Origin: Pedobacter riviphilus
Lineage (GTDB): Bacteria > Bacteroidota > Bacteroidia > Sphingobacteriales > Sphingobacteriaceae
Assembly (NCBI RefSeq): GCF_014692875.1
Contig: NZ_CP061171.1
Span: 1,984,001-2,048,000, forward strand
Direction: 5' to 3'
DNA: 64,000 nt
In this document: positions 7,672 through 44,388 of the stretch, piece by piece
Layout: each line of letters begins with the position of its first letter
How positions within the stretch are numbered: position 1 is the first letter of the stretch
Program-made: the position numbers and the translations under genes
The notes under the pieces: generated by a model
Databases searched by the model: none
Told to the model about the DNA's origin: nothing
The model's input: only the letters and a program-made list of their open reading frames with translations

Positions 7672-7765
7672 TAGATAAAGGTCCTTCGACAGGCTCAGGA
7701 TGACAATTCTATATTAATAACACAACCTCTTTTTTGATTTTTAAGCACACCAGCTTAACTTATAA

Positions 7766-8929: not shown

Positions 8930-9077
8930 TATTTAATTATTGTCTTAGCTGAAGGCATGTTAAAAATCGAAAACTAACACAATATGTTGTAATCTCCGTC
9001 CTGCACTATCGGCTATATTTCATTTTTTGGAGAATTTAGGCACCAGGTATTAGCTCTGGTAGCGTAAAAAGCAATCT

Positions 9078-24593: not shown

Positions 24594-24658
24594 GATAAGA
24601 TGGTACAATATGTGGCCAAAATCTTATATTAATGTTGATATTTAGTCATGCATATTTG
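24594..24658 (+). promoter_or_regulatory. Shared upstream motif, copy 1 (symporter operon)
   Basis: It starts with GATAAGATGGTACAATATGT, then GCCAAAAT, and ends with GCATATTTG at 24650-24658. The same order and the same 65-base total length recur at 36913-36977 and 42526-42590. The last block resembles the Bacteroidota -7 element (TAnnTTTG), and no -33 TTTG is present at the usual distance, which suggests activator dependence (inference). The symporter start codon is 33 bp downstream of the block. Confidence 0.65.
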
Positions 24659-24690
24659 TTTTAACCAAATTAATAAACGAGCCAACAAAT

Positions 24691-26259
24691 AATGAAAGGA
24701 CTTCCTGTAGTCGATCTTGCAATCATCTTCATTTATCTTGTTGGAATGATATTAGTTGGGTTTATTTTTCGAGGAAAAATAAAAACTCCGAGCAATTTAC
24801 AAAAGCTTCGGGCCTGATCCCCGGATGGGCGATAGGTTTATCTATTTATGCAACATTTTTAAGCAGCAATACTTTTTTAGGGGTGCCCGGTAAGGCTTTC
24901 GGGAGCAACTGGAATGCATTTGTATTCAGCATTTCGATGCCGCTAGCAGCATGGATCGCTTCAAAATACTTTGTTCCATTTTATAGGAATACTGGCGAAA
25001 TATCGGCCTATACCCATTTAGAAAAACGTTTTGGTGCATGGGCAAGGGTATATGCAGTTATTTGTTTCCTATTAACGCAGCTGGCCAGAATGGGATCGAT
25101 ATTTTTCGGTATTGCCCTGAGCTTACAGGCACTTACAGGTTATTCCATGCAGATGATTATGATTGTAATGGGCATTTGTATCATTGTTTATACCGTTCTA
25201 GGAGGAATTGAAGCGGTAATATGGACAGAAGTGGTACAGGCGGTAGTGAAAACATTTGGTGCCTTACTCATTCTGTATTTAATCATTTCGAATATGCCGG
25301 GAGGAGTTTCGAAGGTTGTAGAAATCGGGAAATCTGCTGATAAATTTAGCCTTGGCAGTTTTAAGCTCGATTTTGTAGGATCATCGTTTTGGGTGGTGTT
25401 ACTTTATGGTTTTTTTATCAATCTGAATAACTTCGGAATGGACCAAAACTACATCCAGCGTTACCATACCGCATCATCAAGTAAAGCAGCTTCGAAATCG
25501 ATCTGGTTGTGCGTGTGGCTATATATCCCGGCATCATTGCTCTTTTTTATTATAGGATCTTGCTTGTACGCCTATTACGAAATCAATCCAGAATTAGTGC
25601 AGTCGATAAAACACCAGGTGGCGATAGAACGTTTGCCCTTACATGCTTCGGCAGCAGAGGTGTTGAAGGTACAGCATACATTACTGCCATCAGATTATGG
25701 CGACAAAATTATGCCACATTTTATGGTGACTAAAATCCCTGTAGGTTTGGTTGGTTTAATTGTATCAGCCATCTTATCTGCGGCAATGAGTACCATAAGC
25801 TCTGGAATGAACGCTTCAGCAACAGTGTTTTCGGTTGATATTTATAAAAGATATTTTAAGCCTGATGTAACCGAAAAGCAGAATTTATCACTGTTACATT
25901 TGGCCACTATTGGCTTTGGTTTGTTGGGTATGATTGCTGGTATTGCGATGATTGGCGTAAAAAGCATTTTAGACATTTGGTGGGAATTATCAGGTATTTT
26001 TGCGGCAGGAATGCTGGGGCTATTCCTTTTGGGTATTATCAGTAGGCAAACTAAAAACCATGAAGCCATAACAGCAACAACAATCGGCATTGCCGTAATT
26101 ATATGGATGACATTTTCTTCACTTCTTCCTCCAGAATATGAAGTTTTTAGAAATCCTTTACATAAAAACATGATTATCGTGATCGGCACTTTAACCATTT
26201 TTTTAGCAGGACTTTTCCTGACGAAAATTAAAAACGAAAAAACTAAAACAGCCCATTAA
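24691..26259 (+). CDS. Sodium:solute symporter (SSS family), reading frame broken
   Basis: It starts MKGLPVVDLAIIFIYLVGMI at 24691. The frame shifts after RGKIKTPSN and resumes as NSEQFTKASGLIPGWAIGLS, with the rest open to 26259. One extra A in the A5 run at 24775-24779 gives RGKNKNSEQF and a protein of about 522 residues with 13-14 membrane helices. The SSS signature is seen in ATFLSSNTFLGVPGKAFGSN and ILSAAMSTISSGMNASATVF (sodium-site Ser/Thr). Such carriers import monosaccharides or sugar acids across the inner membrane with Na+. It heads an operon with the aldolase and carries the shared upstream motif. Confidence 0.85.
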   Translation, partial: NERTSCSRSCNHLHLSCWNDISWVYFSRKNKNSEQFTKASGLIPGWAIGLSIYATFLSSNTFLGVPGKAFGSNWNAFVFSISMPLAAWIASKYFVPFYRNTGEISAYTHLEKRFGAWARVYAVICFLLTQLARMGSIFFGIALSLQALTGYSMQMIMIVMGICIIVYTVLGGIEAVIWTEVVQAVVKTFGALLILYLIISNMPGGVSKVVEIGKSADKFSLGSFKLDFVGSSFWVVLLYGFFINLNNFGMDQNYIQRYHTASSSKAASKSIWLCVWLYIPASLLFFIIGSCLYAYYEINPELVQSIKHQVAIERLPLHASAAEVLKVQHTLLPSDYGDKIMPHFMVTKIPVGLVGLIVSAILSAAMSTISSGMNASATVFSVDIYKRYFKPDVTEKQNLSLLHLATIGFGLLGMIAGIAMIGVKSILDIWWELSGIFAAGMLGLFLLGIISRQTKNHEAITATTIGIAVIIWMTFSSLLPPEYEVFRNPLHKNMIIVIGTLTIFLAGLFLTKIKNEKTKTAH

Positions 26260-26316
26260 AAACCATTCTGGTTTTATCAGGCAATTAAATAGAACAATTT
26301 ACCATATCAGAATATA

Positions 26317-27248
26317 ATGGAAAACTCACAAAAAGGGTTCATCCCGGTAATGCTCATGCCTTTTTTAAGCAACGGGAACATCGATTACCCGGCACTTACA
26401 CAGCTTACAGAGATTTATTTACAGGCTGGATCATCGGGTTTATTTGCCAATTGTCTGTCGAGCGAAATGTTTGAATTGACTGGTAAAGAACGAATTCAGG
26501 TCATAAAACATGTGATAAAAGTAGTAGATGGGGCAGTACCCGTAATAGCTACCGGGACCTTCGGGGGGAAATCAGCAAACAGGCCGATTTTGTGAAAGAA
26601 GTAAGCGATGCAGGGGTAGAAGCGGTGATTGCAATTAGCAGTTTACTTGCCGAAGAAAATGAAACTGACGAGGTTTTTAACGAAAGGGTATTCGATCTTT
26701 TACACCAGACAGATAAAATTCCATTAGGATTTTACGAATGCCCTGTGCCTTATAAAAGAGTATTAAAACCACAACAATTAGCCGATTTTGTTTCTACCGA
26801 TCGAGTGATTTACCATAAAGACACCTGCCTGGACCTTGTACAGATTAAAGAAAAACTCAAACTGACAGAAGGTAAGACTTTTGGATTATACGATGCATAT
26901 ATCGTACATGCGGTAGAATCGCTAAAAGCCGGAGCTTCAGGTTTATCTTGTATCCAGGGGAATTACTTTCCAGAATTGATTGTATGGCTTTGCGACCATT
27001 ACAATGATGAAGCTTTTAAAGATGAAGTACAGGTGGTACAACAGTTTTTAATCGATAACATGGACGTAATGCATAACGTTTATCCAGTAGTATCGAAATA
27101 TTTCCTGCAAAAGAGAGGGCTTAATATTTCGACTTTTACCCGTAGAAATGTAGGCTCGTTTACGCCAAGCATAGTAAAAGGAGTAGAAACATTGTTTGAT
27201 GATTATACCTTGTTACGCAATAACTTGAATATTAAGATTTTTATATAG
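26317..27248 (+). CDS. DapA-family aldolase/lyase, reading frame broken
   Basis: The first frame (26317-26595) ends GTFGGKSANRPIL. The second continues from ISKQADFVKEVSDAGVEA to 27248. One extra G in the G6 run at 26563-26568 restores GTFGGEISKQADF and a protein of about 310 residues, the usual family size. Class I features are the Schiff-base Lys in VIYHKDTC (about 166) and the catalytic Tyr in GFYECP (about 139). DapA relatives include N-acetylneuraminate lyase and 2-keto-3-deoxy-aldonate aldolases. A sugar-acid aldolase is likely next to a symporter, but the substrate is not determinable. It is cytoplasmic. Confidence 0.82.
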
Positions 27249-27257
27249 TGGTACAGT

Positions 27258-27324
27258 CGTCATCCTGAACTTGTTTCAGGATCTATTTTGCTGGACCTTA
27301 TAGGTCTTAAAAACCTATAAGGTC
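27258..27324. repeat. Dispersed CGTCATCCTGAA element and hairpin between convergent genes
   Basis: 27258-27283 is one copy of the CGTCATCCTGAAC..TTCAGGATC element (near-identical at 50926-50957). 27294-27324 is a perfect 12-bp stem, GACCTTATAGGT/ACCTATAAGGTC, with a seven-base loop. There is no T-run on the plus strand. It may act as a two-way barrier between the aldolase and the AraC gene. Confidence 0.65.
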
Positions 27325-27335
27325 TGAATAAATAC

Positions 27336-28205
27336 TTAATTCAAATACTTCCTCTTATAGTCTAAAGGCGTCATCCCCGTTACCTTTTTAAAATGCCGGT
27401 AGAAGTTAGATACATTATTAAAACCACAATCAAAACAGATCATTTCGGTTGGTAGCTTGTTTTCAATCAGGAAACGGCAGGCGTGGCTCACCCTAATTTC
27501 GATCAGGAAATCATAAAAGGTCTTCTTCGTCATCAGTTTAAAATACCTGCAGAAAGAAGTTACGCTTAAATTACTCAATGAAGCCACTTCTTCCAATGTA
27601 ATATCCTTTTTATAATTACTCAGGGTATAATTACAGATTTTATTGATTCGGAGTGTTTCAGACTCATTGCTTTGATAGAATGTATTTTTGCTCGTTACAA
27701 TCGTCGAAAATTCATCCGTTTCTGCCAATGTTTTTAAGATAGATAAAAGGATAATGATCCGGTCCAAATTGGTCGCATCAACAGCAGCCCGCATTAAATC
27801 AACCAGTTTATCTTTAGCTTTCCCTTTAATTACCATTCCGCTTTTGGCTTTTTCGAATAATTTAGGGATCAGGTAAGCTTCAGGTAAAGTAAGCATGTAT
27901 TTACCCAAACAATCGGGTAAGAAATGGATCACCATGGCTTCGGTTGTAAGATCGGGGTTATTTTGGAAATATTCATCTTTACAACGCCAGGTATGAGGCA
28001 GGTTTTCACCTAAAAGCACCATCTCATCTGGCACAAAATTACTGATGTTGTCGCCAATAAAACGAAGGCCTTCTCCTTTGATTACATAATGCAATTCCAG
28101 TTCAGGATGGTAGTGCCAGATATTTCCAAAGTCAGGTTTGATATCGTGACGGATGCTAAATGAACTTTGTAAGGTAATTGGAACTTTATGAAAATGAGGT
28201 TTCAT
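27336..28205 (-). CDS. AraC-family regulator with cupin sensor domain
   Basis: A 289-residue protein. The N-terminal cupin (about 10-95) includes WHYHPELELHYVIKGEG and VLLGENLPHTW. The C-terminal pair of HTH motifs (about 190-289) is LEEVASLSNLSVTSFCRYFK and MICFDCGFNNVSNFYRHFKK, ending in the family signature GMTPLDYKRKYL. The cupin probably binds a sugar or sugar acid. It is transcribed away from the isomerase-like gene at 28429 and convergent with the symporter-aldolase operon, so it is the obvious local candidate to bind the shared motif at 24594, 36913 and 42526 (inference). Confidence 0.9.
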   Translation of the reverse strand: MKPHFHKVPITLQSSFSIRHDIKPDFGNIWHYHPELELHYVIKGEGLRFIGDNISNFVPDEMVLLGENLPHTWRCKDEYFQNNPDLTTEAMVIHFLPDCLGKYMLTLPEAYLIPKLFEKAKSGMVIKGKAKDKLVDLMRAAVDATNLDRIIILLSILKTLAETDEFSTIVTSKNTFYQSNESETLRINKICNYTLSNYKKDITLEEVASLSNLSVTSFCRYFKLMTKKTFYDFLIEIRVSHACRFLIENKLPTEMICFDCGFNNVSNFYRHFKKVTGMTPLDYKRKYLN

Positions 28206-28428
28206 GTAAAAATAAATATTTGGTTAGGACTGTATTACAATATTCTACAAATTGTGCCACAGTGGTCTAAAGTTAGCGAGTTTAATGATAACATCCTATA
28301 TTAATTTGATAAAAACTATCAGGAAATAGTGTTTTTCATTGTTGAGTTTTGTATATAGCCGTAAAGGCATAACCCAAATATAAACTGACAAATTATTTTT
28401 ATATAAATTATTTGTTCATTAATAAATC

Positions 28429-30063
28429 ATGAGACAAGGCAAACAAGGCGAAATTCTACTGGTTTCTAGCGGAGATTTACGGCTTTCGGCAAATCAAAAC
28501 TGCTGGGCTGCTCAAGTCGAAATGGAACGGAAATTAACTTTGGCCATCGAACAATTTGGCTGGAAAGTTAAACGCGCCCATTCATACAATTCAACAAAAA
28601 AACATGGCTTTATCGATTCGCAAAGAATGGGTATGGATATCTTTAGAAATATTGATCCCAACCAGCCTTTAATTGTAGCAGAAAGCGTTTGGCAATACTC
28701 TCATCACGTATTAGCCGGACTTACCACACATCGTGGACCAATATTAACCGTAGCCAACTGGAGCGGCCAATGGCCTGGTTTAGTGGGCATGTTAAACCTA
28801 AATGGTTGTTTAACCAAGGCAGCTATACCTTATAGTACTTTATGGAGTGAAGATTTTACCGATGATTTTTTTACTGAAGGACTACAGGAATGGCTCTCGA
28901 CTGGTAAAATTAGCTACGATCAGAGTCATGTGAAAGGTTTTGCACTCAGTAAAATCCCAGCAGGTGATGACAAGATAGGAAGAACCTTTGCCCGGAATTT
29001 AAAAGCGCGTAAAGTAATTATGGGCGTGTTTGATGAGGGCTGCATGGGTATGTACAATGCTATCATTCCCGATGAATTACTCCATAAGACTGGTTTTTTT
29101 AAAGAACGTTTAAGTCAATCGGCGCTGTACGCGGCTATGTTACAGGTAACGGATGCCGAAGCAGAAGCTGTTTTAGACTGGCTTTTGCAAAAAGGAATGA
29201 CCTTTAACTGGGGTACTGAAGAAGAAACACAGTTAACCAAAAGACAAACGCTAGAACAGTGTAAAATGTATATTGCAGCTGTAAGAATAGCGGATGATTT
29301 TAGCTGCGATACCATTGGGATACAATACCAGCAAGGCCTAAAAGATTTAACCGTTGCGAGTGATCTGGTAGAAGGTTTATTAAATAACGAAGACCGGCCG
29401 CCAGTATTTTCTGTAGATGGTAAAGAACTTTACCCAAAACGTGCTTTACCGCATTTTAACGAGGTAGATGAATGTGCAGGTTTAGATGCCCTGATAACCT
29501 ACAATCTTTGGAAAGAATTAGGAATGACCGGAGAAAACACCCTTCACGATATCCGTTGGGGCGAATATTACAAAAATGATGATGTAAATGGTTTTGTTTG
29601 GTTGTTTTTAATCTCCGGAGCAGCACCACCTGCACATTTTATTGATGGTTATGCCGGAGCAAGCAGCGATAGGCAGCCAGCTATGTATTTCCGTTTAGGC
29701 GGTGGATCGTTAAAAGGTGTTAGTAAACCGGGGTTCATTGTTTGGAGCCGTGTTTATATAATGGATAATGAATTACATTGCGATTTAGGCGTTGGGGAAG
29801 TAGTAGCTTTGCCTGAGGAAGAAACCAAAAGACGTTGGAGCGGAACAACACCCGAATGGCCCATTATGCATGCCATTTTAAAAGGTATAAGCCGCGATCA
29901 GCTAATGGCCAGACATAAAGCCAATCACATTCAGGTGGTTTATACCAATTATGAAGCCGGGGCACACGAAGCTTGCCGCATTAAAGCCGCTGCAATGGAT
30001 GAACTTGGCTTAAAAGTGCATTTTTGTGGGGATGTGAATCTAAAAAAAATAAATACAATTTAA
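28429..30063 (+). CDS. L-fucose/L-arabinose isomerase superfamily protein
   Basis: A 544-residue cytoplasmic protein with no signal peptide. The first two thirds has Rossmann-like alternation of the isomerase N domains (EILLVSSGDLRLSANQNCW, ILTVANWSGQWPGLVGMLNL, KARKVIMGVFDEGCMGMYNA). The C-terminal part has the beta-barrel features of FucI/AraA C domains, with PEWPIMHAILKGISRDQL and a late AHEACR. It is distant from classical FucI (about 590 residues), so a different aldose or ketose substrate is possible. It is followed after 10 bp by a DUF3826 gene and then the first SusCD pair, suggesting one transcript. Confidence 0.65.
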   Translation: MRQGKQGEILLVSSGDLRLSANQNCWAAQVEMERKLTLAIEQFGWKVKRAHSYNSTKKHGFIDSQRMGMDIFRNIDPNQPLIVAESVWQYSHHVLAGLTTHRGPILTVANWSGQWPGLVGMLNLNGCLTKAAIPYSTLWSEDFTDDFFTEGLQEWLSTGKISYDQSHVKGFALSKIPAGDDKIGRTFARNLKARKVIMGVFDEGCMGMYNAIIPDELLHKTGFFKERLSQSALYAAMLQVTDAEAEAVLDWLLQKGMTFNWGTEEETQLTKRQTLEQCKMYIAAVRIADDFSCDTIGIQYQQGLKDLTVASDLVEGLLNNEDRPPVFSVDGKELYPKRALPHFNEVDECAGLDALITYNLWKELGMTGENTLHDIRWGEYYKNDDVNGFVWLFLISGAAPPAHFIDGYAGASSDRQPAMYFRLGGGSLKGVSKPGFIVWSRVYIMDNELHCDLGVGEVVALPEEETKRRWSGTTPEWPIMHAILKGISRDQLMARHKANHIQVVYTNYEAGAHEACRIKAAAMDELGLKVHFCGDVNLKKINTI

Positions 30064-30073
30064 ATATAAAGAC

Positions 30074-30742
30074 ATGAAATCATCAATTTTAGCCTTATTG
30101 TTAACTTTCTCGAGCATGACCACCATTTTTGCTCAGCGCAGCGCAGTTGCAGATAAGGAAGCTTATACCAAAATGATTACCGAGCGTTCGGCTAAAATTG
30201 TTGCCAATCTTGGGATTACCAATGCGAAGAAAAGCGAAAAAGTGACGGTAATCATCAGAGATCAGTATAGCAATTTAAATGATATTTATTCCGCACGCGA
30301 TGCCCGCGTAAAAGCAATTAAAGAAAAAAACAAAGACAATAAAGTGGAACGCGATTCGGCACTGGCAAAAGATGGCCGTGTGGTAGAAGCATCATTGGCT
30401 AAACTCCATAAAAAATACATCAGTAAACTTTCTGCGCAACTAACTAATGAGCAGGTGGAACTGGTTAAAAATGGTATGACCTATAATGTGTTGCCCATCA
30501 CTTACAAAGCTTATCAGGAAGAAATTTTAACGCTGACCGCAGATCAGAAAAAACAGATCCTGATCTGGTTAACTGAGGCGAGGGAGCATGCCATGGATGC
30601 AGAATCATCAGATAAAAAACATGCCTGGTTTGGTAAATACAAAGGACGCATTAACAATTACTTATCAGCTGCCGGGTACGATCTGAAGAAAGAAGGAGTA
30701 GAGTGGGAGAAAAGGAGAAAAGCCAAGGCTGAAGCCAATTAA
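30074..30742 (+). CDS. DUF3826 secreted protein
   Basis: A 222-residue protein, signal peptide to TTIFAQR, with an almost wholly helical mature part rich in Lys and Glu. It shows the DUF3826 pattern of paired helices: SAKIVANLGITNAKKSEKVT, LTNEQVELVKNGMTYNVL, YQEEILTLTADQKKQILIWL. The function of this family is unknown; members are frequent in pectin and arabinogalactan loci of Bacteroidota. A second copy is at 61143-61802. It is located 10 bp after the isomerase-like gene and 37 bp before SusC, so it may be a periplasmic binding or chaperone-like part of the uptake system (inference). Confidence 0.85.
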   Translation: MKSSILALLLTFSSMTTIFAQRSAVADKEAYTKMITERSAKIVANLGITNAKKSEKVTVIIRDQYSNLNDIYSARDARVKAIKEKNKDNKVERDSALAKDGRVVEASLAKLHKKYISKLSAQLTNEQVELVKNGMTYNVLPITYKAYQEEILTLTADQKKQILIWLTEAREHAMDAESSDKKHAWFGKYKGRINNYLSAAGYDLKKEGVEWEKRRKAKAEAN

Positions 30743-30779
30743 AATCAGACAAAAAAACAAACTAACCAAATAAACTATT

Positions 30780-33700
30780 ATGATCTTTAAAACTTTACGA
30801 AAAACCCCATGGGTTTTAATGCTACTGCTTTGTGCCTTTACGAGCGTTTTTGCCCAACAAAAACAGATAAAAGGCAAGGTGGTGGATAAAAAAGACGGGC
30901 AGCCCATACCCGGAGTCAGCGTTGGTATCCGTGGAAAAACCAACAATGTAAGTACCAATGATAAAGGCGAATTTGCCTTAGTTGCCGATCCGGCAAGTGA
31001 TGTACTCGTTTTTTCTTATGTGGGTTATGTTAGGCAGGTGGTTGCCCTGGCTGGCAAATCAACTTTAGAAATCAACCTGGTTGAAGACAGTCAAAGTTTA
31101 GATAATGATGCAGTAGTGGTAATCGGTTACGGCGTCAAAAAGCGTTCAGAGATTTTGGGTTCTGTGGCCAATATTAAAGCGGAAGAAATCCAGGATCTTC
31201 CTGTACCTAATATCGCAGCCGCTTTGCGTAACAAAATACAAGGCGTTGGCGTTAACACGGTTTCAGGTAAACCAGGTTCTTCTATCACTTTAAACATCCG
31301 TAATTCAACTGCTTCCGATCAATCGAAACTCTACGGCGTTACCTCCGAACCGCTTTACGTTATTGATGGAATTACCGTAACCCGCGATGAATTCGACAAT
31401 ATCGATATCTCTATGGTAGAAGATATTTCCTTTTTGAAAGATGCTTCGGCAGCAATTTATGGCGCCTCAGGCGCAAAAGGTGTGGTTTTAGTCACCACAA
31501 AAAGGGGAAAAGCAGGTAAACCTAAAATTAGCTATACCGGTTATGTAGGTTATCAGGATAATACCAGTGATGTGAAAATGCTCAGCGCTTATGATCATGC
31601 TACTTTACTGAATGATGCCAACAAAATCAAAAATGCCCCAACTTCAGCCTTATTTTCGGATGCAGACCTGGAGGTTTTAAAAAATAACCCCAACAGAAGC
31701 TGGTTCGATGAACTTTGGAAGGTAGCCTCAACCAACCGTCATAACATCAACATTTCAGGTGGCTCGGAAACAATAACCTTTTTTGCTGGGGGTAATTATT
31801 ATAATGAAACTGGTAACTACGGCGGCATTACCTATAATAAATACGCTTTCCGTTCGGGCATGAATGCCAAGATTTTTCCCGGTTTAACTGCCGACGTAAC
31901 CTTAAATACCGATTTTAATAAGAAAAACAGCGATACCTATAAAAACGGCGGGGAGAACGATCAGGCCTTTTTCCAGCAGCTGATTACCACACCAATGTGG
32001 GTACCCATACAGATTGATGGTAAACCTGTAAATTACAATGGAAACACGAATCCATTGGCTGTTATCAATTCTGGAAATAATATTTACAGCAAATCGCAGG
32101 GTTTAAATATCAATGCGGCCTTAAATTATAGCCCTTCTTTTATTAAAGGCTTAACGGCCAGCGTACGTTTCGGTAAAAACAACAGGAGCGGTAGCGGTGG
32201 CCAGTATATTCCGCCATACACGGTGTACAATTTCAAAATGACCGGTCAAAACGGATTGTTATATACCAACGAATCTACTGCAGCTATTACAGCGGTTGGT
32301 TTGGCCAACACCTTATTATTAAAAGGTAACGATATGGCTTCAAGCTATCAGGCCATCGGCTCGTTGAGTTACAACCGCCAGATCGGCAAACACTCCATCA
32401 CCGCTTTAGCTGCTTTCGATCAATCGGAAAATAACAGCGAATCGCTTTCGGTGTACTGGAGAAACCAAGTATTGCCCAATGTGAACCAATATTGGGGCTT
32501 TGACCAATCTACCTTCACCATGCAGGAAAACACCTTTGGCGAAGCTGTACAGCGTTCATTCATTACCCGTTTCAGCTACGATTTTGACAAGAAATACTTA
32601 TTGGAAGCCATTGGCCGCTGGGATGCCTCCTCAAATTTCGCTCCCGGTAACCGTTGGGGCTTATTCCCAAGTTTAGGTTTGGGCTGGGTAATCAGCCAGG
32701 AAAATTTCTTTAAAGAAAACGTAAAATTTGTAAGCAATTTAAAAGTCCGTGCCAACTATGGTATGGTAGGCGAAAGCCGCGTGGATGCCCGTTTATGGCA
32801 ATCGCGTTATAAAGTAGATCCGAACGGCTATTCGTACAACGAATCGATGTATGGTGGACTGAACCCATCAATTTTACCAAACCCTGATATTACCTGGGAG
32901 AAAGCCCGCACAATGAACTTAGGTTTAGATGCAGCCTTATTTAACAATAAGCTAAACATTACCTACGAATTTTACCACCGCTATTCTTATGATATGTTTG
33001 ATAAAGGCAACAACGAAAACTTCCCGATGTATGCCGGCTTCGAAGCACCAATTATAAATTATCAACAGAGAACAGCTTGGGGACACGAAATTACATTAGG
33101 TTACCGCACCAAGCTGGGTAAAGATTTCGGCATATCAACAGATGTCATGTTCGGTTTTGGTAACAGCCGTATCGACAGGATGTTTTATAACCAGTTTCAA
33201 TTGTGGGATACTACTTATCCCGATCTTAAATACCAGTTTGGTACCAATCCAAATGTATACAATACCTCAAACTATGGACTGATTTCGAAAGGAATGTTGA
33301 GGACACAGGCCGATGTTGATGCTTTATTGAACAAATACCCTACCTATACCATTAACGGATCGGTACCACAAGTAGGCTGGTTATACTATGAAGATGTTAA
33401 CGGCGATGGAAAAATCACTGAAAAAGACCAGGCGCTAATGTTCAAAAGCCTTAATTCATTTGGGGTTGGTTTTAACGTTGGCCTTACTTATAAAGCCTTT
33501 AGTTTGAATACCAATTTTGTAACCCGTTTTGGGGGAAAAGCATTTTTTGATACCAAATCTAAAGCTCCAGCAAGCACAACGATAAATGTTCCGGCTTATT
33601 GGAAAGACCATTGGACACCTGAAAATACCAATGCAGCGTTTCCACGTTTTGATGATCCTTCTATAGCTGCCGGATGGAATTCGACATTTTGGGCAAGAAG

Positions 33701-33917
33701 CGGCACCATGATCAGGATCAACAACATGACGTTAACTTATAAAATGCCAAGGGATTTTATGAATAAACTGGGCATTGCCGATTCGCGATTTGTATTAACG
33801 GGTAATAACCTGTGGACAATTATCAATCCTTTAGATTACAAAGATCCTTATTCATCAACCATTTATGATTACCCTACACTCAGAACCATCTCCGTAGGAT
33901 TAAATATAAGCCTGTAA
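30780..33917 (+). CDS. SusC-family TonB-dependent outer-membrane transporter
   Basis: A 1045-residue protein with a signal peptide to TSVFAQQ. A carboxypeptidase-regulatory-like domain covers about 25-105 (IKGKVVDKKDGQPIPGVSVG). The plug starts near AVVVIGYGVKKRSEILGSV, with PLYVIDGI and ISFLKDASAAIYGASGAKGV as family hallmarks, and is followed by a 22-strand barrel to the terminal ISVGLNISL. It imports oligosaccharides across the outer membrane with its SusD partner. Its stop overlaps an ATG of the next frame; the preferred SusD start is 27 bp further on. Confidence 0.96.
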   Translation: MIFKTLRKTPWVLMLLLCAFTSVFAQQKQIKGKVVDKKDGQPIPGVSVGIRGKTNNVSTNDKGEFALVADPASDVLVFSYVGYVRQVVALAGKSTLEINLVEDSQSLDNDAVVVIGYGVKKRSEILGSVANIKAEEIQDLPVPNIAAALRNKIQGVGVNTVSGKPGSSITLNIRNSTASDQSKLYGVTSEPLYVIDGITVTRDEFDNIDISMVEDISFLKDASAAIYGASGAKGVVLVTTKRGKAGKPKISYTGYVGYQDNTSDVKMLSAYDHATLLNDANKIKNAPTSALFSDADLEVLKNNPNRSWFDELWKVASTNRHNINISGGSETITFFAGGNYYNETGNYGGITYNKYAFRSGMNAKIFPGLTADVTLNTDFNKKNSDTYKNGGENDQAFFQQLITTPMWVPIQIDGKPVNYNGNTNPLAVINSGNNIYSKSQGLNINAALNYSPSFIKGLTASVRFGKNNRSGSGGQYIPPYTVYNFKMTGQNGLLYTNESTAAITAVGLANTLLLKGNDMASSYQAIGSLSYNRQIGKHSITALAAFDQSENNSESLSVYWRNQVLPNVNQYWGFDQSTFTMQENTFGEAVQRSFITRFSYDFDKKYLLEAIGRWDASSNFAPGNRWGLFPSLGLGWVISQENFFKENVKFVSNLKVRANYGMVGESRVDARLWQSRYKVDPNGYSYNESMYGGLNPSILPNPDITWEKARTMNLGLDAALFNNKLNITYEFYHRYSYDMFDKGNNENFPMYAGFEAPIINYQQRTAWGHEITLGYRTKLGKDFGISTDVMFGFGNSRIDRMFYNQFQLWDTTYPDLKYQFGTNPNVYNTSNYGLISKGMLRTQADVDALLNKYPTYTINGSVPQVGWLYYEDVNGDGKITEKDQALMFKSLNSFGVGFNVGLTYKAFSLNTNFVTRFGGKAFFDTKSKAPASTTINVPAYWKDHWTPENTNAAFPRFDDPSIAAGWNSTFWARSGTMIRINNMTLTYKMPRDFMNKLGIADSRFVLTGNNLWTIINPLDYKDPYSSTIYDYPTLRTISVGLNISL

Positions 33918-33943
33918 TGCTGTACCACTCAAACCAAGCTAAA

Positions 33944-35779
33944 ATGATTTTAAAAAATAAAACCACATTGCTGATCGGAATGATGGCGATGCTTATCTTA
34001 TTCTCTTCTTCCTGCAAAAAGGATTTCTTCGATCTCGAAGATAGAAATGGAATGGACTCACGGATTTGGGACAACGAAGGTTCTATCCAGTTTCTTTTAA
34101 ACGATACTTACGATGTGACTATGCCCGATTTTCCTTATGAAATAACGGCCGATAATGTAATTTACGCCAGTGATGAAGATAAATTTTCTTCTTCAGAATC
34201 GATTATGCGTAAGGCCATTGGTGTAAATGGAGTTTTAACCGCTAACGATGTAAAATTTATTGCGACCAAATATCAGGGCAATAAAGGTGATAACCGCTAT
34301 TTCGATATTGCACGCTGCAATGTTGCTCTAAAAGAAATACCAAAAGGAACCTTATCTCAAAGTTCGAAAAACAAGCTGCGCGGTCAGTTTTTTGCTTTAA
34401 GGGCCATTACCTATTTCCAGTTGGTAAGGCTTTATGGTGGAGTGCCTTTAGTGCTTGAACCACAGGATCCGGATAATTTAACGCTTACAGGACGTTCAAA
34501 AGCATCAGCATGTTTCCAGGTCATCGTAAACGATCTGGATTCGGCTATAAACTTGTTAAATGGTGTAACCTGGGTAGATGCTACCGAGAGGGGTAAATTT
34601 ACCCGTCAGGCTGCAGCCGCGTTAAAAGCCAGGGTTTTATTGTATTGGGCCAGTCCACAGTTTAACCCAACCAATAATCCAGCGCACCCATTCGATCAAA
34701 GCAGATGGCAAAAAGCTTATGAGGTCAATAAAGAAGCTTACGATATCTGCAAAGCTGCAGGAGCGTCGTTAATGCCAAATTATGCCGATATTTTTCTTAA
34801 AGAAGGAACGGCCAATCCTGAAGCCATCATCGTTCGTTCATATTCGGCCAAACTTTCTAAAAGAGGACAAAATGTAGAACAAAAAAGCAGGCCAACAGAA
34901 GAGGGCGGCAATGCATCGGCTTTTACACCAACCTTACAATTGGTAAATGCCTATACCATGAAAGATGGTGTTCCGGTAGGGCAGGCCAGTTCTTTCACTT
35001 ATGATCCGGTTGTATTTTGGGTAAACCGCGATCCCCGTTTAGACGCAACAATTGCTTATAATGGAAGTCAATGGAAATTAAGCGGTCTAGCTACCCGTAA
35101 ACAATGGTGTTATAACGGTGGAATTACTGAAGCATCACCACAGGGGTTTTATTTAAAGAAATTCTGCGATCCTGATCTGGCCAAAGGCTCGGTAATTAAT
35201 GCCAACGATTTTGGAGGAAACGGTTTAGACTGGGTAGAACTCCGTTTTGCTGAAGTTATTATGAATTATGCCGAATGTGCTAACGAGATTGGCAATCTGC
35301 AGGAAGCCAAAGACCTGATTAAACAGATCAGAATCAGGGCTGGCATACAAGCCGGAACTAAAAACTATGGCTTAGACCTGGCTACTTCCAAAGAATTGAT
35401 GCGCGACCTGATCATGAATGAACGGATGGTCGAGTTTTCTTTCGAGGGCAAACGCTCATTCGATCTAAGACGAACCCGCCGTTACCATTTATTGAGCGGC
35501 CAGATGCAGACCATCCAATGGACAGTTAAAACCGCTGCATTGAAAACCGAATTAGAAGCTGTGGGTACCAATGGTATCCGTTTTAGGGAAAATATTAACG
35601 TAAACGACCGGACTACGTTTGATAAATATTTTACAGCAACTAACGTAAATCAAGGACCTAATGGTTTTGGAATATTGGATACCTACTATTTCTTTGCCTT
35701 ACCTTCAACATTTATGAATTCAAGTCCATTGTTAGATCAAACCATAGGATGGGATGGTGGAACATTCGATCCGTTGTAA
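33944..35779 (+). CDS. SusD/RagB-family glycan-binding lipoprotein
   Basis: A 611-residue lipoprotein; the ATG at 33944 is preferred because it gives a clean signal ending LILFSSSCKKDFFD with the lipid-bearing Cys. The SusD fold has TPR-like helices (RGQFFALRAITYFQLVRLYG) and the C-terminal SusD signature around DLIMNERMVEFSFEGKRSFD. It forms the lid of the SusC transporter at 30780 and captures glycan at the cell surface. The paired genes overlap or abut, as is usual. Confidence 0.95.
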   Translation: MILKNKTTLLIGMMAMLILFSSSCKKDFFDLEDRNGMDSRIWDNEGSIQFLLNDTYDVTMPDFPYEITADNVIYASDEDKFSSSESIMRKAIGVNGVLTANDVKFIATKYQGNKGDNRYFDIARCNVALKEIPKGTLSQSSKNKLRGQFFALRAITYFQLVRLYGGVPLVLEPQDPDNLTLTGRSKASACFQVIVNDLDSAINLLNGVTWVDATERGKFTRQAAAALKARVLLYWASPQFNPTNNPAHPFDQSRWQKAYEVNKEAYDICKAAGASLMPNYADIFLKEGTANPEAIIVRSYSAKLSKRGQNVEQKSRPTEEGGNASAFTPTLQLVNAYTMKDGVPVGQASSFTYDPVVFWVNRDPRLDATIAYNGSQWKLSGLATRKQWCYNGGITEASPQGFYLKKFCDPDLAKGSVINANDFGGNGLDWVELRFAEVIMNYAECANEIGNLQEAKDLIKQIRIRAGIQAGTKNYGLDLATSKELMRDLIMNERMVEFSFEGKRSFDLRRTRRYHLLSGQMQTIQWTVKTAALKTELEAVGTNGIRFRENINVNDRTTFDKYFTATNVNQGPNGFGILDTYYFFALPSTFMNSSPLLDQTIGWDGGTFDPL

Positions 35780-35809
35780 ATCAATATTCATCAGTAAATA
35801 AAATTTAAA

Positions 35810-36616
35810 ATGAAAAGAAATTTAAATGTTGTTGGCCTGATCGTAATGGCAACACTTCTTTTTACAGCCTGTAAAAAAGAAACCACCAATATATTTAATA
35901 TGTTTGAGGATGTTACGGTAACCTATTCGGCCAAAAGCCCTTATGCCGTAACCAGTTATAAAGATGTAAATGTAGGTGATAGTGTGTACTTAGAATACAC
36001 CATCGAATCGCCGAAAACAGATATGTACGTGGCCTGTATTTTCGAAACTTCGTCGGCCATTCCCACAAAAATTGCACTGGACGATACGCAGCGCAAAAAA
36101 GCTACAGGCATCGTTAAACTAAAAATGGACACAAGGGTGGGGCTAATCTCTTACCGGATTTGGGCGTTGGATAAAGGCGGCATTTACCTGGGGGATGGAT
36201 ACAAAACCATTACTTTAAATGTATTGCCTGATTATAAATACTGGACATCAAGGGAGATTTTTATTCCAGATACCGTTACCAAGGTAGCCAATTCTTATAT
36301 TTCCTTAACCACTGGACAACTATACAGCTACTCGAACGGTAAAGAAAATACTGATAAAATCGATCTTGGTATTTATCGTACGCCAGTAACTGCAAATGGT
36401 GTAAACGGTTATTTGTATAATGCTTATGCTTTAGATGCGAATCCGATGCCATTTACGGCCTATGATATGAGCACATGGACAAATAAACGCGCAACTTTAC
36501 TTGGTGCACCAAAAACCGGACAAGCTTCAGCCTTTTTAAACTTAAGAACCGGTGCGCAGATTCTTACGGCAGGTAAAAGCGCTAAACCCACACTCAAATC
36601 TATTACCACGGATTAA
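35810..36616 (+). CDS. Surface lipoprotein of unknown function in SusE/F position
   Basis: A 268-residue lipoprotein (MATLLFTACKKE). Two beta-rich segments are visible: residues about 35-145, which look like an Ig-like or cadherin-type domain (VGDSVYLEYTIESPKTDMYV), and about 150-265, with aromatic-rich strands. No enzyme motif is visible. It is 30 bp after SusD and ends the first SusCD unit, the place often held by surface glycan-binding proteins. Glycan binding is inferred from position only. Confidence 0.7.
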   Translation: MKRNLNVVGLIVMATLLFTACKKETTNIFNMFEDVTVTYSAKSPYAVTSYKDVNVGDSVYLEYTIESPKTDMYVACIFETSSAIPTKIALDDTQRKKATGIVKLKMDTRVGLISYRIWALDKGGIYLGDGYKTITLNVLPDYKYWTSREIFIPDTVTKVANSYISLTTGQLYSYSNGKENTDKIDLGIYRTPVTANGVNGYLYNAYALDANPMPFTAYDMSTWTNKRATLLGAPKTGQASAFLNLRTGAQILTAGKSAKPTLKSITTD

Positions 36617-36786
36617 TACCAGGTAGTTTATTTTATTTCTTAACGCCCGAGGGTAAGTATGGCGCTTTCTATGTTAATTCCATCTCCAGCAACAATTCAT
36701 CGCGCGGAGTTTTCTTAAACGTTGATGTGAAAATACAGAATTAAAATACGAAGTTTTAGATAGACAATAATTCTGTTTTTTGTTAG

Positions 36787-36818
36787 AATCGAGACAATTT
36801 AATTGTCTCGATTTTTTT
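36787..36818 (+). terminator. Intrinsic terminator after first SusCD unit
   Basis: AATCGAGACAAT pairs with ATTGTCTCGATT, with a run of T immediately after. It is about 170 bp after the stop codon at 36616. Confidence 0.9.
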
Positions 36819-37020
36819 ATTTAAGAATATTTCATTTATATATGAATTAATTATATCTTGTATCGCCAAATTAAAATACTGAATGTTGTTTGTATATTTT
36901 ACTTATATGTTTGATAAAATCGTATAATAAATAGCGAACATACTCGCTAAAACAGCCAGTTTTTGATTGCAACTTTGAATTACAATACTTTCTAACCAAA
37001 ATATTTATCTAGATCCAAAT
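36819..37020 (+). promoter_or_regulatory. Upstream region with shared motif, copy 2 (second SusC)
   Basis: The motif spans 36913-36977: GATAAAATCGTATAATAAAT, AGCGAACAT and GCAACTTTG at the end, the same length as copies 1 and 3. Here similarity to the region before the pectate lyase (42421-42640) is longer, from ATTTATATATGAATT before the motif to TACTTTCTAACCAAAAT after it, so the two upstream regions share ancestry. The remaining intergenic part to 37237 is AT-rich with no gene. Confidence 0.7.
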
Positions 37021-37237
37021 AAAAAAAATGAGCCAAATCACATTGTGTTTTTCATCACTTTAATTTTTATAAGCATTAATTGAACTTTTTATTTTATCGA
37101 TCCTAATAAAAAATACTTATAAACTGATTGATAAGGATAATTAAATACCTCAGTTACAAAAAAAATAATAAAATACAAACATTAAACTCAGGCTTATAAC
37201 CAGCCGACATTATAATATTAACTAACCAAATAATAAG

Positions 37238-40200
37238 ATGAACTTAAAATTTTTACGCAAAATTTCTTTGTCCTTGCTTTTTATTCTACTGGCAAGCACA
37301 ATCCTCTTTGCCCAAGACCGAAAGGTAACGGGAAAGGTTGTCGATCAGGCAGATGGACAGGGGATCCCGGGGGTAAATGTGAGCATCAAAGGTGTACCCA
37401 GTAATGTGAGTACCAATGCGGATGGTATTTATACTATTCAGGTAAAAAGCAATGCCGATGTGCTTGTATTTTCTTACATCGGCTACATCAGGCAGCAAAC
37501 TCTAGTTGGTACCCAATCTACAATCAATATCAAACTGGTATCCGACAATAAAGATCTGGATGATGTGGTAATTGTGGGTTACGGTACACAAAAAAAGACC
37601 TCGCTCACCGGTTCGGTATCTACACCGAATTTGAAAAGTGTTGAAGATATACCTGCCTTAAACTTAACGGCGGCCTTAAAAGGCACAGCGCCTGGTTTAA
37701 GTGTATCTGGCGGCGCACAAAGGCCAGGGCAAGGAACAACCGTAACCATTCGTAATCCGGTGGTTTTTGCAAAAGATGGCGGTCAGGGTACCAATCCTTT
37801 ATTTGTTATCGACGATATTATCAGAACACAGGCCGATTTTGATAACCTGGATATTAACGAAATAGACAACGTATCTGTTTTAAAAGATGCTGAAGCCGCA
37901 ATTTTCGGGGTTCAGGGTGCAAACGGTGTTATTCTGATCAGAACAAAGAAGGGCAAGATCGGTGCGCCAAAATTTAATATCAGCAATTCACTTGGTGTAT
38001 CTACGGCTACCATCATGCCCAAAATGATGAATTCATTACAATTGGGAACTTTCTCTAATGATTATACCCAGGCATCAGCCTATATACAAACTACTCCTGG
38101 AGTTCCTGTTGATAAATTTTATGATGCCGATGGATATTTGATAACAGCTGGGGTTAAAGGACCGACCAGGCTTGCCGCTTGGTACACACCAGATGAGCTG
38201 GATTATTTTTCAACACACAGTCACAATTATTTTGATGATGCTTTTGGACCTGCTTATGTTTGGCGCACAGCAGCAAACATCAGTGGCGGAAATGATAAAG
38301 TAACCTATTTTATCGGTGGCGATTTTGTAAACCAGAACAGCAATTTTAAAGGTATTAACTCTTATAAATATGGATTAAGGGCAACTGTTGAAGCAAAGCC
38401 GGCCAAAGGACTGGTTACCTCTTTATCATTAAACACCAATGTGGGTTATAACAGAAGTTATTGGTATAAATTAACCAGTACATCCGAAAGTTTGGATAAC
38501 GATGCTGCATCATTACAAAATGTTCAGCCTTGGCAGGAATATTTCATCAATGGTAATCCAGTGGTAATGGGGGAAGTAATACGGGTGGTAATGATAACAT
38601 CAATTTCTTCGCCATCCAAAATTCAAACAACTATACTGGAGGCACCAATACCTCGACTAATATTTTAGCTAAAGTTACCTACGAAATCCCGGGTATAAAA
38701 GGATTGATGGCTACGGCAACATTCAACAAAAACTTAAATGCGGCCAATAACAAGCAGTTCGGTACATCATTTGTTTACTATAAATATGCTGGGTTAGGAG
38801 CCAACAATCATATTCCAGGAGGAGCATTAGTAGGTACATTTAGTGTTTTAAACGGCGATAAAGTACGTTTAACCCCAAATTTTGCAGATTCTTATCAGTT
38901 AAACGCAGGTTTAACTTATAGCCGCTCGTTTGGCAAGCACAATATTTCGGCATTGGCTTTGGTAGAACAGCGCGAGCAAAATAGTGAAGGAGTAAATGCA
39001 GAAGCAACCGGGATGGTAGCCGGGGCTTTAGATTATCAATCATTTGCGGTGGGTGCTTCAAGTTCAAATCAATCCTCAACCGTAAGTCAATTTGGTTTCC
39101 AGGCCTTGATTACCCGTGTAAATTACGATTACGATCAAAAATACCTATTACAATTGATTTACAGGGCCGATGGTAGTTCAAGGTTTGCACCAGGAAATAA
39201 CTGGGGACATTTCCCCGCTGCATCAGTAGGTTGGGTAGCTAATAAAGAATCTTTCCTGGCTAACGCAAAATGGCTCGATTTGTTAAAATTCAGGGCTTCG
39301 GTAGGTTTATCGGGCGTTGATAATACTAAAGCTTATCAATATTTAGCCAATTATAATCTGGGCACAGGAAGTTCTGGTGGTGCTGTTTTTAATGGTAACG
39401 ATTCAAGAACGATTGCGATTAAACCCAATCTGGCCATTCCAAATGTGGATGTAACCTGGAACAAAGAGCTTAAAACTTCGTACGGTGTAGATATGGCTTT
39501 CTTAAAAAACCGCCTTTCTTTTACAACTGAATACTATTGGAACCACGGTACTGATATCTTAACTTCTTTAAGCTCATCCGTGCCAACAACAATCGGTGCC
39601 ACCACGCCAACTGAAAATTATACTAATGCCAATACATTTGGTTGGGAGTTCTCATTAGGCTGGAGGGATAAGATCGGTAAAGATTTTACTTATGGTATTA
39701 GTCCATTCTATACCTGGATGGATAACAAAATGTTGAAAGTTGATCAGGCAGCTTCGATTATCGGTACGGTAGAAGATGTTACCGGAAGATCATCTGATTT
39801 AGGAGTTTTTGGTTATAAATCTTTGGGCATTATCAGAACACAGGCCGAGGCAGATGCAATTATCGCAGAACGTGCCACTGCAGCCGGTGGTGCAGCCAAT
39901 GTTAAAATATTTGGACAGCCTTTACAGCCTGGTATGATCAATTATGAGGATATAAACGGGGATGGGGTGATTAGTACCGATAAAAAAGATCAGTCTTTTA
40001 TAAAAAGCAGGCAGAATAACCATAATGCATTAGGTTTAAACTGGAATGTGGGTTATAAAGGAATTGTACTGAACGTAATTATGGGCATGTCGTGGGGCGG
40101 ATGGACCACAATAGATGGTTTAAAACCAGCCAACCAGTCGAGCTCATCAACAGGTGCATCAATTTATGATAACAGGGCAGTATACTGGGTAGATCACTGG

Positions 40201-40503
40201 ACACCAACCAATACCAACGCGGCATACCCTAATCCTTTCTTCCGAACAAATTTTGAAGTAACATCCGATTTTTGGTTGGTTAAAGCAACCAGCTTCAGCA
40301 TCAGTAGTATCAATTTAAGCTATAATGTTCCAACCAATATCGCGAATAAAGTAGGAATGTCAAGCTTGAGGCTATATGCCGTTGCTACCAATCCGGTTCA
40401 ATTTATCAACCCTTTTCCAGGCAAATACAGAGATTTACAAACAGCTTTATATTCCTATCCAACGTTAAAAACTTGGTCATTCGGATTAAATGTTGGTTTT
40501 TAA
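37238..40503 (+). CDS. SusC-family TonB-dependent transporter, reading frame broken
   Basis: Signal peptide to TILFAQDRK; carboxypeptidase-regulatory-like domain VTGKVVDQADGQGIPGVNVS; plug with VVIVGYGTQKKTSLTGS, PLFVIDDI and VSVLKDAEAAIFGVQGANGV. The frame breaks near residue 445 after NGNPVVMG and continues in the next frame as GGSNTGGNDNINFFAIQNSN. One extra G in the G5 run at 38569-38573 restores a protein of about 1088 residues ending WSFGLNVGF. It is the outer-membrane importer of the second pair, with the shared motif upstream. The two halves in the raw sequence end and resume at 38668 and 38704. Confidence 0.92.
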
Positions 40504-40514
40504 AATATAGAAAA

Positions 40515-42338
40515 ATGAAAAAGATATTCATCATAACTGCATTAAGCTTAGCCGTATTTTCGCTAACGAATTGCAAAAAGGTTTTAGAAAAACAAGATGT
40601 TGGTAATTTTACTGCCGATCAGATTTTTAACGACTCAACCACTGTAAAATTAAATGCTGACTACCTATACAGTCAAAATCAACCTGGTTGGTTTGGCACT
40701 ACAGGTGGTTCTGTTCACTCTGCAGGTACTTATAACCTAACGGAAGAAAGCCAGGGAAGCAACAATTTTGTTTTAGGTACATTAACCATCGAAAGTGTAA
40801 CCGATATAGGTACATCGGCAAGTGCAAATCCTGCTTATACCAAAATCAGGGTAATCAATACTTTCTTGCGAGATGTTAATGCCGGTACACTCGATCTGGC
40901 TGTAAAACGCAGATTTGCCGCCCAAGCTTATTTCTGGAGGGCTTTCAGGTATTTTGAACTGGTAAAATTATATGGTGGCGTGCCTTTAATTTTGGTTCCA
41001 CTTGGTGCCGTTGGCGATGAGGCAAAACAAGAAGCATTGGTTCCCCGCGCCAAAACAAGTGCAGTTTTCGCACAGATTAAAAGCGATCTTGATTCTTGCA
41101 TTAAATATCTTCCGGCAAAATGGCCTAAAACAGCCGATTATGGAAGGATTACTTCTGGAGCAGCTGCAGCATTTCTTGGCCGTGTATTGTTAACTTATGC
41201 CAGTCCACAGTTTAATCCTAATAACGATATTGCCCGTTGGCAGGCTGCTTACGATGCAAACAAAAATGCAGTAAACATATTATCTGCAAATGGTTTTGCA
41301 CTTTACCCTAAAATAGATTACACCATGTGGACTACAGAAGGTGCAGCAAATACAGAAGCTGTATTAGTTACAGGTTACAATAACTCATCAGTAGATGCAA
41401 ATGCCAATAATAACACCTTCGATAATGGTGCAAGGCCCAAATCAGTTTCTGGTGGTGGCTCGTTTACGCCTACTTACGAAATGAGTTTAGCTTTCCCAAT
41501 GGCTGATGGTAAACCTGCCAATACTTCATCAAAATATCCATATTCAATGGCTACCTTTTATAAAAACAGAGACCCAAGATTTTATACCACGCTTGCCTAT
41601 AATGGCGGTACCTGGGGTTCAGTTTTAGGAGGTAACCGTTTGTGGACATATTATTACTACACTGCTACCTCGGGTAATGCCAATAAAACTACAGAGGCCG
41701 TAGCGGCTAGCAATACGGGCTTCTACCTGCGTAAAGGGGTTGATGAAACGAAAACTTCTCCAACCACCTTTATGGGTACAGATTGGATCGAAATACGTTA
41801 TGCCGAAGTATTACTGAATTTAGCTGAATCTGCCGCTGAGCTTAATAAACTAGCTGTTACTGACGAAGCCTATGCAAATTTGATTGCCATCAGAAAAAGA
41901 GCTGGTATTGAGGTAGGTACAGATGGTTTATATGGCTTAACAGCCGGAATGGGAAGAACCGATCTTGTTGCCGCTGTTATGAGGGAGAGACAGATTGAAC
42001 TGGCTTTTGAAGGTAAAAGATTTTGGGATCTGAGAAGAAGAAAATTGCTGGAATCTACTTTAAATGGTACAAAACGTAATGCTTTGATTATTCAGCTGAA
42101 CAGGAGCGGTACACAAACTACTGATTATATTGCACTAACCAGAGAAGCCTCTGCGGCAAATTCTTTAGATGCATTATATGCTTCTAGCTTTACATTATCT
42201 TTAAAAGCATTAGATAACCAAAATATCAATTTCCAGGCGGGAAACTATTTTTATGGCATACCAACACTATCCATAAACAATAATATCAATTTACAACAGA
42301 ATAATACCTGGGGTGGTCCATTCGATCCGCTTCAATAG
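40515..42338 (+). CDS. SusD/RagB-family glycan-binding lipoprotein
   Basis: A 607-residue lipoprotein; the ATG at 40515 is chosen because MKKIFIITALSLAVFSLTNC is a typical lipoprotein leader. TPR-like helices (RRFAAQAYFWRAFRYFELVK) and the C-terminal signature MRERQIELAFEGKRFWDLRR are present. It is the partner of the SusC at 37238, 11 bp away, and a strong terminator follows at 42356. No further outer-surface lipoprotein gene follows it. Confidence 0.95.
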   Translation: MKKIFIITALSLAVFSLTNCKKVLEKQDVGNFTADQIFNDSTTVKLNADYLYSQNQPGWFGTTGGSVHSAGTYNLTEESQGSNNFVLGTLTIESVTDIGTSASANPAYTKIRVINTFLRDVNAGTLDLAVKRRFAAQAYFWRAFRYFELVKLYGGVPLILVPLGAVGDEAKQEALVPRAKTSAVFAQIKSDLDSCIKYLPAKWPKTADYGRITSGAAAAFLGRVLLTYASPQFNPNNDIARWQAAYDANKNAVNILSANGFALYPKIDYTMWTTEGAANTEAVLVTGYNNSSVDANANNNTFDNGARPKSVSGGGSFTPTYEMSLAFPMADGKPANTSSKYPYSMATFYKNRDPRFYTTLAYNGGTWGSVLGGNRLWTYYYYTATSGNANKTTEAVAASNTGFYLRKGVDETKTSPTTFMGTDWIEIRYAEVLLNLAESAAELNKLAVTDEAYANLIAIRKRAGIEVGTDGLYGLTAGMGRTDLVAAVMRERQIELAFEGKRFWDLRRRKLLESTLNGTKRNALIIQLNRSGTQTTDYIALTREASAANSLDALYASSFTLSLKALDNQNINFQAGNYFYGIPTLSINNNINLQQNNTWGGPFDPLQ

Positions 42339-42355
42339 ATATTTCAATATCTTCG

Positions 42356-42386
42356 GGGTGGTTTGCTCACCACCCCATTTTTTTTA
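42356..42386 (+). terminator. Intrinsic terminator after second SusCD unit
   Basis: GGGGTGG pairs with CCACCCC around an eight-base loop and is followed by eight T. Confidence 0.92.
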
Positions 42387-42420
42387 TTTGGTTTGGAAAA
42401 AGGGGACATTAATTTGTTTC

Positions 42421-42640
42421 CTTTTTTTTTATTTAAGAATGTTACATTTATATATGAATTTTATTCCTATCTTGTAACATGGCTGCGAGAATGAATTTAA
42501 TTTGTTACAGACATTTTTACCAATTGATAAGATGATACAATAGATAGCCAAAATTATACATTAAACAGCTGCTTTTTGCATGCAAATTTGAAAGATAATA
42601 TACTTTCTAACCAAAATTACTTACAAGGATAGACAAAGAA
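42421..42640 (+). promoter_or_regulatory. Upstream region with shared motif, copy 3 (pectate lyase operon)
   Basis: The motif spans 42526-42590: GATAAGATGATACAATAGAT, AGCCAAAAT and GCAAATTTG at the end. It matches copy 1 at about 33 of the first 39 bases and copy 2 over a longer region. The rest of the gap from 42387 to 42731 is AT-rich with no gene. Confidence 0.7.
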
Positions 42641-42731
42641 ATGAGCCACGATTTTCAATATCAGCGATTAGATTTTTTCTGCTAGTTAAAAATATTTCGT
42701 AACTTCTTTCTCTTCCCAACGAACAACACAA

Positions 42732-44387: not shown

Positions 44388-44388
44388 T

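Follow-up and report, generated by a model that had tools for sequence, protein, structure and literature searches.

A candidate AraC-type operator-promoter module at four operon heads of a pectin locus in Pedobacter riviphilus

Genes and modules at the locus

The 64,000-nucleotide stretch of Pedobacter riviphilus DNA analyzed here (G000:C1:1984001-2048000; hereafter the window, within which positions are counted) belongs to a contig of 5,825,361 bases, which constitutes a 5.83-Mb Pedobacter genome in one piece (completeness 97.7%). It carries a pectin/rhamnogalacturonan II (RG-II)-type gene cluster extending from 12164 to 63031, in which two SusC/SusD pairs lie together with RG-II-type enzymes, the combination by which an RG-II or pectin polysaccharide utilization locus is recognized. 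We describe a 65-base module that stands at the heads of four operons in this cluster, and its relationship with the gene (araC) for an AraC-family protein encoded among them.

The first module (24594..24658, + strand) precedes an operon (24692..27248, +) coding for an SSF-family symporter and a DHDPS-family aldolase. The original prediction, made from the sequence of the window, had placed it at the symporter head, and this stands with one adjustment: the symporter open reading frame (ORF) is frameshifted and starts at 24692, so that the module lies just before the start codon. The araC gene is on the opposite strand (27336..28205, −); its 289-residue product, the proposed activator, has an HTH_18 domain at residues 208-285 (E 2.8e-19; 69.6 bits, cut-off 33.6), and its N-terminal cupin matches fall under the curated cut-offs (Cupin_2, 22.7 against 27.2 bits; AraC_binding, 20.9 against 21.1 bits). 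A further module (28287..28351, +; GATAACATCCTATATTAATTT GATAAAAACTATCAGGAAATA ... TGAGTTTTG) is located between araC and a divergently transcribed fucose-isomerase-like gene, and the operon that follows it (28429..36616, +), the extent of which is predicted from gene spacing, would comprise the isomerase-like gene, a DUF3826 gene, the first SusC and SusD genes, and gene 35810 of unknown function. The module at 36913..36977 (+), whose second half-site is degenerate, precedes the gene for the second SusC, which is broken into two ORFs at about 38.7 kb, and that for its SusD partner (37238..42338, +). The module at 42526..42590 (+), the top match in the genome, precedes the genes for two pectate-lyase-like proteins without Pfam matches (42732..46020, +), and additional RG-II-type enzymes are encoded 3' of these in the same direction (+), to about 63031.

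Domain matches at the locus include GH28, GH95, GH2, GH43, GH78, an apiosidase, a BT_1020-like domain, DUF6298, and DUF3826. The alpha-galacturonidase (in two pieces) and the two lyases, which resemble PelZ, each score below the NCBIfam cut-off, the lyases far below it. Solved structural relatives exist for the lyase encoded at 42732 (a pectate lyase, 9buj), the apiosidase, and the BT_1020-like protein. The enzyme content points to RG-II as the probable substrate of the locus. Frameshifts are seen at about 13690 (alpha-galacturonidase), 24760 (symporter), 26566 (aldolase), 38690 (second SusC), and 60100 (rhamnosidase); the first three genes are single open frames in the relatives G057 and G110, and the last two were judged by adjoining ORFs and split matches. 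In a single-contig genome these look like assembly errors, with gene decay as an alternative.

Structure of the module and its half-sites

Three 65-base modules running from GATAARAT to TTTG had been predicted at operon heads; all three (24594, 36913, and 42526) are real and lie where they had been placed, and the fourth, at 28287-28351, had been overlooked. As the latter is situated between araC and the isomerase-like gene, the first SusCD operon joins the same set. A 29-nt pattern (up to three mismatches) finds only the copies at 24594, 36913, and 42526 within the window, with a mean of 0.01 in 100 shuffles, and a 26-nt pattern at the same stringency finds only these three genome-wide, the reversed control pattern giving three matches; both patterns were derived from the copies themselves, so these counts are weak alone and other tests carry the weight.

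When up to two mismatches were allowed, the 26-nt pattern was found at 38 places in 21 of 99 genomes (five places for the reversed control), all of them among the 60 genomes of the same genus (its own included) and none among the 39 from other families of the class. TTTG is present at positions 62-65 in 25 of the 31 loci taken from these places; the first matrix omits the other six, among them the variant loci L012, L017, and L023, which are in three Pedobacter genomes with an AraC relative of 71-73% identity and have the site GATAARATNNTATAATAAATAGCTAATAATCACAA and no TTTG at the usual place. A gapless profile, A2, was then assembled from 40 sites in other genomes of the genus, hand-picked from 64 non-redundant sites. 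None of the 40 came from this genome, although some are nearly identical to its copies, and the 24 left out include all those from regions around AraC relatives of 62-77% identity. As every A2 site is from the genus of the window, loci of other genera with AraC proteins of 66-74% identity lie outside the training set. There is some circularity in this construction, since the sites of the first matrix were chosen by a window-derived pattern; none of these came from genomes G099-G137, which did, however, contribute some sites to A2.

The profile matches four places over its full length in this genome: 42526 (E 5e-15), 24594 (1.5e-12), 36913 (2.2e-10), and 28287 (3.5e-7); the fifth-ranked match is partial (positions 21-65 only; E 0.02). 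The genome-wide search that had been suggested as a check thus places the four top full-length matches all in the locus and shows the specificity of the module. The four copies share between 34 and 46 of their 65 bases in pairwise comparisons.

The blocks from which the original prediction composed the module are all present, but they are not independent elements: the module repeats a 17-bp half-site in tandem and in direct orientation, with a period of 21 bp and a constant spacing to a -7-like box. Because the two halves are the same word, GATAARAT is box 1 and TAyAATA box 2 of the first half-site, and GCCAAAAT is the second's box 1. In the first module the half-sites are at 24594-24610 and 24615-24631, and the -7-like box, CATATTTG, is at 24651-24658. 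The conserved columns of the 25 TTTG-bearing loci are identical in the two halves (G at 1/22, AA at 4-5/25-26, AT at 7-8/28-29, T at 11/32, and A at 17/38), and among the 64 non-redundant sites half-site self-identity peaks at a 21-bp offset (0.617), the other 17 offsets between 10 and 27 all giving values of 0.20-0.44. Within single copies the halves agree at 12 (42526), 10 (24594), 9 (28287), and 7 (36913) of 17 positions, the copy at 36913 having the weakest second half.

The resemblance of the last block to a -7 element, as predicted, is reinforced by its constant position: TTTG starts at position 62 in 84 of the 88 sites found by columns 1-40 alone (TTTG starting at 50 is seen in 21), a test that is mildly circular since these columns were trained mostly on TTTG-bearing sites. 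The box is CAnnTTTG rather than TAnnTTTG in three of the four copies. In Flavobacterium, a member of the same phylum, the -7 element has T-12, A-11, and TTTG at -8 to -5, and a -33 element is scarcely visible genome-wide, according to the portion of that study available to us (PMC6847099). On this scale the distal half-site would occupy about -69 to -53 and the proximal one about -48 to -32, probably over the -33 region, with transcription starting near position 70. No -33 box is seen in the modules, as had been noted, but because this element is hardly evident in Flavobacterium its absence proves little about an activator, and the fixed spacing is the better argument. The layout of the module is that of an AraC-type activator site in class II position, and a tandem direct-repeat operator with a period of about 21 bp beside a core promoter is among the features expected of an AraC-family regulon. 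E. coli AraC at araI1-I2 likewise sits next to the core promoter, on a tandem pair of half-sites with 21-bp spacing, in class II activation, and differs from the Pedobacter case in half-site sequence, sigma factor, and ligand.

The leaders that follow the modules at 36913 and 42526 (36978-37040 and 42591-42650) are alike, sharing TTTCTAACCAAAAT and ATGAGCC. A leader peptide was considered for these two leaders, both of which have TCTAACCAAAAT and ATGAGCC, and was dropped: the frames vary in length and sequence, and some stop immediately. A fifth operator, at the alpha-galacturonidase head (12164), was also rejected in this genome, where the aligned 65 bases score -21.8, though 13 of 31 relatives have a site there.

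Distribution of the sites and of araC among relatives

Orthologs of the AraC protein with 62-100% identity are present in 49 of 99 Pedobacter genomes; below these there is a gap, followed by paralogs of at most 45% identity. Profile matches (E ≤1e-4) were found in 43 of the 49 genomes with an ortholog and in none of the 50 without one (Fisher p 6.4e-22). At the level of the order, among 300 genomes, 94 of 126 with an AraC match (E ≤1e-110) and 2 of 174 without one have profile matches (p 5.4e-47).

The position of the sites relative to araC is similarly constant. A site scoring above 8, pointing away from araC, is present no more than 520 bp upstream of the gene at all 41 loci with orthologs of at least 84% identity, all of them in Pedobacter, and upstream in the same orientation at 14 of 17 loci with 66-74% identity (Sphingobacterium, Parapedobacter, Desertivirga, and one Pedobacter). 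TTTG is in place in every one of these sites, and the three other readings of the same upstream stretches gave 0 of 41 and 1 of 17. The segments TSFCRYFK and SNFYRHFK are unchanged across 59 aligned AraC proteins and, by eye, are probably the recognition helices.

Target genes were counted in regions around the close orthologs, the AraC relatives of 62-77% identity being set apart, as those having a site that scores above 8 no more than 500 bp before the gene. Three head genes have the site almost throughout, namely the isomerase-like gene (27/27), the symporter gene (33/34), and the pectate lyase gene (34/35, with TTTG at position 62 in 31 of the 34). It is present in part before the second SusC (SusC2; 7/15), the alpha-galacturonidase (13/31), the first copy of DUF3826 (13/39), and the SDR gene (8/23), and absent before the internal genes for GH95 (0/36), GH28 (0/35), the aldolase (0/35), and DUF6298 (0/34); for the second lyase there are 3 of 35, which may result from cross-matching to the first. 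Scores above 8 in control readings occur for the alpha-galacturonidase (8/31), the SDR gene (4/23), and the two lyases (3/35 and 1/35); those of araC (40/40) are the divergent site itself. The alpha-galacturonidase head is the noisiest, and its eight control scores probably derive from sites of the divergent SDR gene.

Targets also lie away from araC. In G107 the symporter gene and its site are roughly 500 kb distant from araC, and lyase genes with a site are about 36 kb away in G117, 0.76 Mb in G212, 0.69 Mb in G267, and 0.42 Mb in G181. A member of this lyase family (59-77% identity) is located downstream of the site in 13 of 18 further regions chosen among the profile matches. The SDR gene that is divergent from the alpha-galacturonidase (11132-11896, −) is preceded by a TTTG-bearing site in 8 of 23 relatives and by none in this genome, and some species may have the SDR/FAA-hydrolase genes as an additional target. 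Loci L285 and L280, from G216 and G352, have sites ahead of a gene that by eye resembles an iron-containing alcohol dehydrogenase and that in G216 is divergent from araC; it is possibly a lactaldehyde reductase and a clue to the inducer. The isomerase-like, aldolase, and alcohol-dehydrogenase-like targets together do not point to a single inducer. At L287 two full sites 400 bp apart (G359, positions 823022 and 823422) precede a DUF6298 gene, which suggests doubled control in another genus. The SusC2 and alpha-galacturonidase heads show that membership of the regulon shifts among species.

Two relatives, G127 and G052, provide a natural absence. Both have an ortholog of the pectate lyase (87% identical) in a colinear locus, with most genes 72-90% identical, and neither has a close AraC protein. 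No site was found in the 39.8 kb scanned in each, the best scores being -3.4 and 2.6, as compared with medians of 43-63 for intact heads. The lyase leader TCTAACCAAAAT is retained in both although the operator is gone. AraC is the sole recognized DNA-binding protein among the genes missing from them, and gene 35810 has no family match. A third genome, G020, is uninformative, being incomplete with a contig that ends early.

A proposed regulon, its alternatives, and known systems

We propose that the module is the operator and promoter of a single activator, the AraC protein encoded at 27336-28205, acting on four operons, and judging from sequence we regard this as very probable. The protein would bind the two head-to-tail half-sites, which are two helical turns (21 bp) apart; bound at the proximal one, at about -48 to -32, it would substitute for the -33 element and recruit RNA polymerase to the poor -7 box. 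The trigger would be a pectin breakdown product arriving in the cytoplasm, and the symporter-aldolase, isomerase-SusCD1, SusCD2, and pectate lyase operons would be switched on together. That the modules answer to one shared regulator had been predicted, with this AraC as a candidate; co-occurrence with araC, the site adjoining it, and the absence of sites where araC is missing strongly support the former and, together with the lack of a domain typical of hybrid two-component system (HTCS) regulators within about 430 kb, leave this AraC the best candidate.

The AraC protein could bind the same sites and repress in the absence of sugar, or the activation could be due to another factor. The direction of control is not readable from sequence and one site adjoins araC itself, but the -33 region is where the sites end, a poor -7 box follows at a constant distance, and we consider this improbable. 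A site over the -33 region is the usual position for an activator.

Still less probable is that an HTCS encoded elsewhere binds the sites, a possibility that the original prediction had kept open. HTCS proteins, too, bind DNA through AraC-type domains and use direct repeats with a 21-bp period, so that the geometry does not discriminate, but one domain search of the genome gave 16 matches to Y_Y_Y, the domain taken to signal an HTCS, of which the nearest on each side lies over 430 kb off (the Pfam scan of the window covering all but nine ORFs of at least 150 residues at its left end, 451-9899), and the sites follow the AraC ortholog in presence, position, and absence. It is scarcely credible that the modules are simply a duplicated upstream segment, similar by descent and without a regulatory role, since the likeness of the copies at 36913 and 42526 does extend into the leader but half-site positions are constant in diverged genomes while the spacers vary, and the lyase of G127 and G052 has lost the site and kept the leader.

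Several observations weigh against control by this AraC, or soften the evidence for it. The genus and order samples overlap and consist of related genomes, so that counts are inflated by kinship and the p-values overstate. Six Pedobacter genomes with orthologs of 70-74% identity (G016, G017, G032, G043, G054, and G128) are site-less at the profile threshold; of the five whose araC stretch was inspected (all but G032), four have weaker variants near the gene, and none was found in G128. Two genomes of the order without a close ortholog have borderline matches (G336, E 9.9e-5; G363, E 7.7e-5), and 3 of the 17 more distant araC loci, one of them in Pedobacter, have no upstream site. The site of SusC2 is facultative (7 of 15), and the head at 12164 has no intact site here in contrast to 13 of 31 relatives. 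In G127 and G052 more than araC is missing: the symporter, aldolase, isomerase, first SusCD pair, and 35810 are gone too, no separate match above 38% identity is given by the second lyase and SusD2, and the SusC found in the SusC2 position has an identity of only 43%. This leaves the pectate lyase head as the one retained target that is clean, and a single event may underlie both genomes.

Related systems are known in the phylum. In Bacteroides thetaiotaomicron, HTCS regulators are found in rhamnogalacturonan loci and the direct repeats predicted for them have a mean of 21 bp, with BT0977-1030 yielding no predictable motif, as given in the part of a 2013 comparative study available to us (PMC3878776). 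The HTCS_Rgu-1 and HTCS_Rgu-2 regulons and BT0977-1030 (HTCS BT0981), as far as that part describes them, resemble the Pedobacter case in controlling rhamnogalacturonan loci and in their direct repeats, whereas the linked regulator here is a 289-residue AraC protein with no sensor-kinase domains by Pfam and no Y_Y_Y domain nearby. RhaR of B. thetaiotaomicron is a one-component AraC-family activator of sugar genes with direct-repeat sites of 21-bp periodicity; its reconstructed regulon, in the sections available, is a single rhamnose operon (PMC3870299), whereas in Pedobacter the sites take in the symporter and aldolase, the isomerase, both SusCD pairs, and the pectate lyases. CgrA (ZGAL_3159) of the Zobellia carrageenan locus, described in the accessible part of its report as a positive AraC-family regulator whose deletion mutant lags on carrageenans (PMC5698469), is likewise a one-component protein acting positively on a Bacteroidota polysaccharide locus, and differs in the polysaccharide; that part gives no binding motif for it. 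No published account of this regulon was found among the titles and abstract openings listed, a search with most subscription journals outside its scope. Mechanism and architecture are thus known ones, and what is new is this set of regulator, operator, and targets, which we consider a well-supported new regulon.

The finding supplies an RG-II-type pectin locus with a regulon that can be tested and an operator defined to the base, and it points to targets beyond the locus in relatives, pectate lyase genes hundreds of kilobases from araC among them. The relatives provide a natural absence case, and the fixed -7 spacing a clean test of activator action with the Bacteroidota sigma factor. For the Pedobacter/Sphingobacterium family we incline, with some reserve, to a broader view: that one soluble AraC protein may run a pectin/RG-II programme in trans, sensing a cytoplasmic breakdown product, in a role that HTCS regulators are known to have at Bacteroides pectin loci, that a rigid geometry between operator and -7 box would take the place of the -33 element, and that the operators would decay once the regulator is lost.

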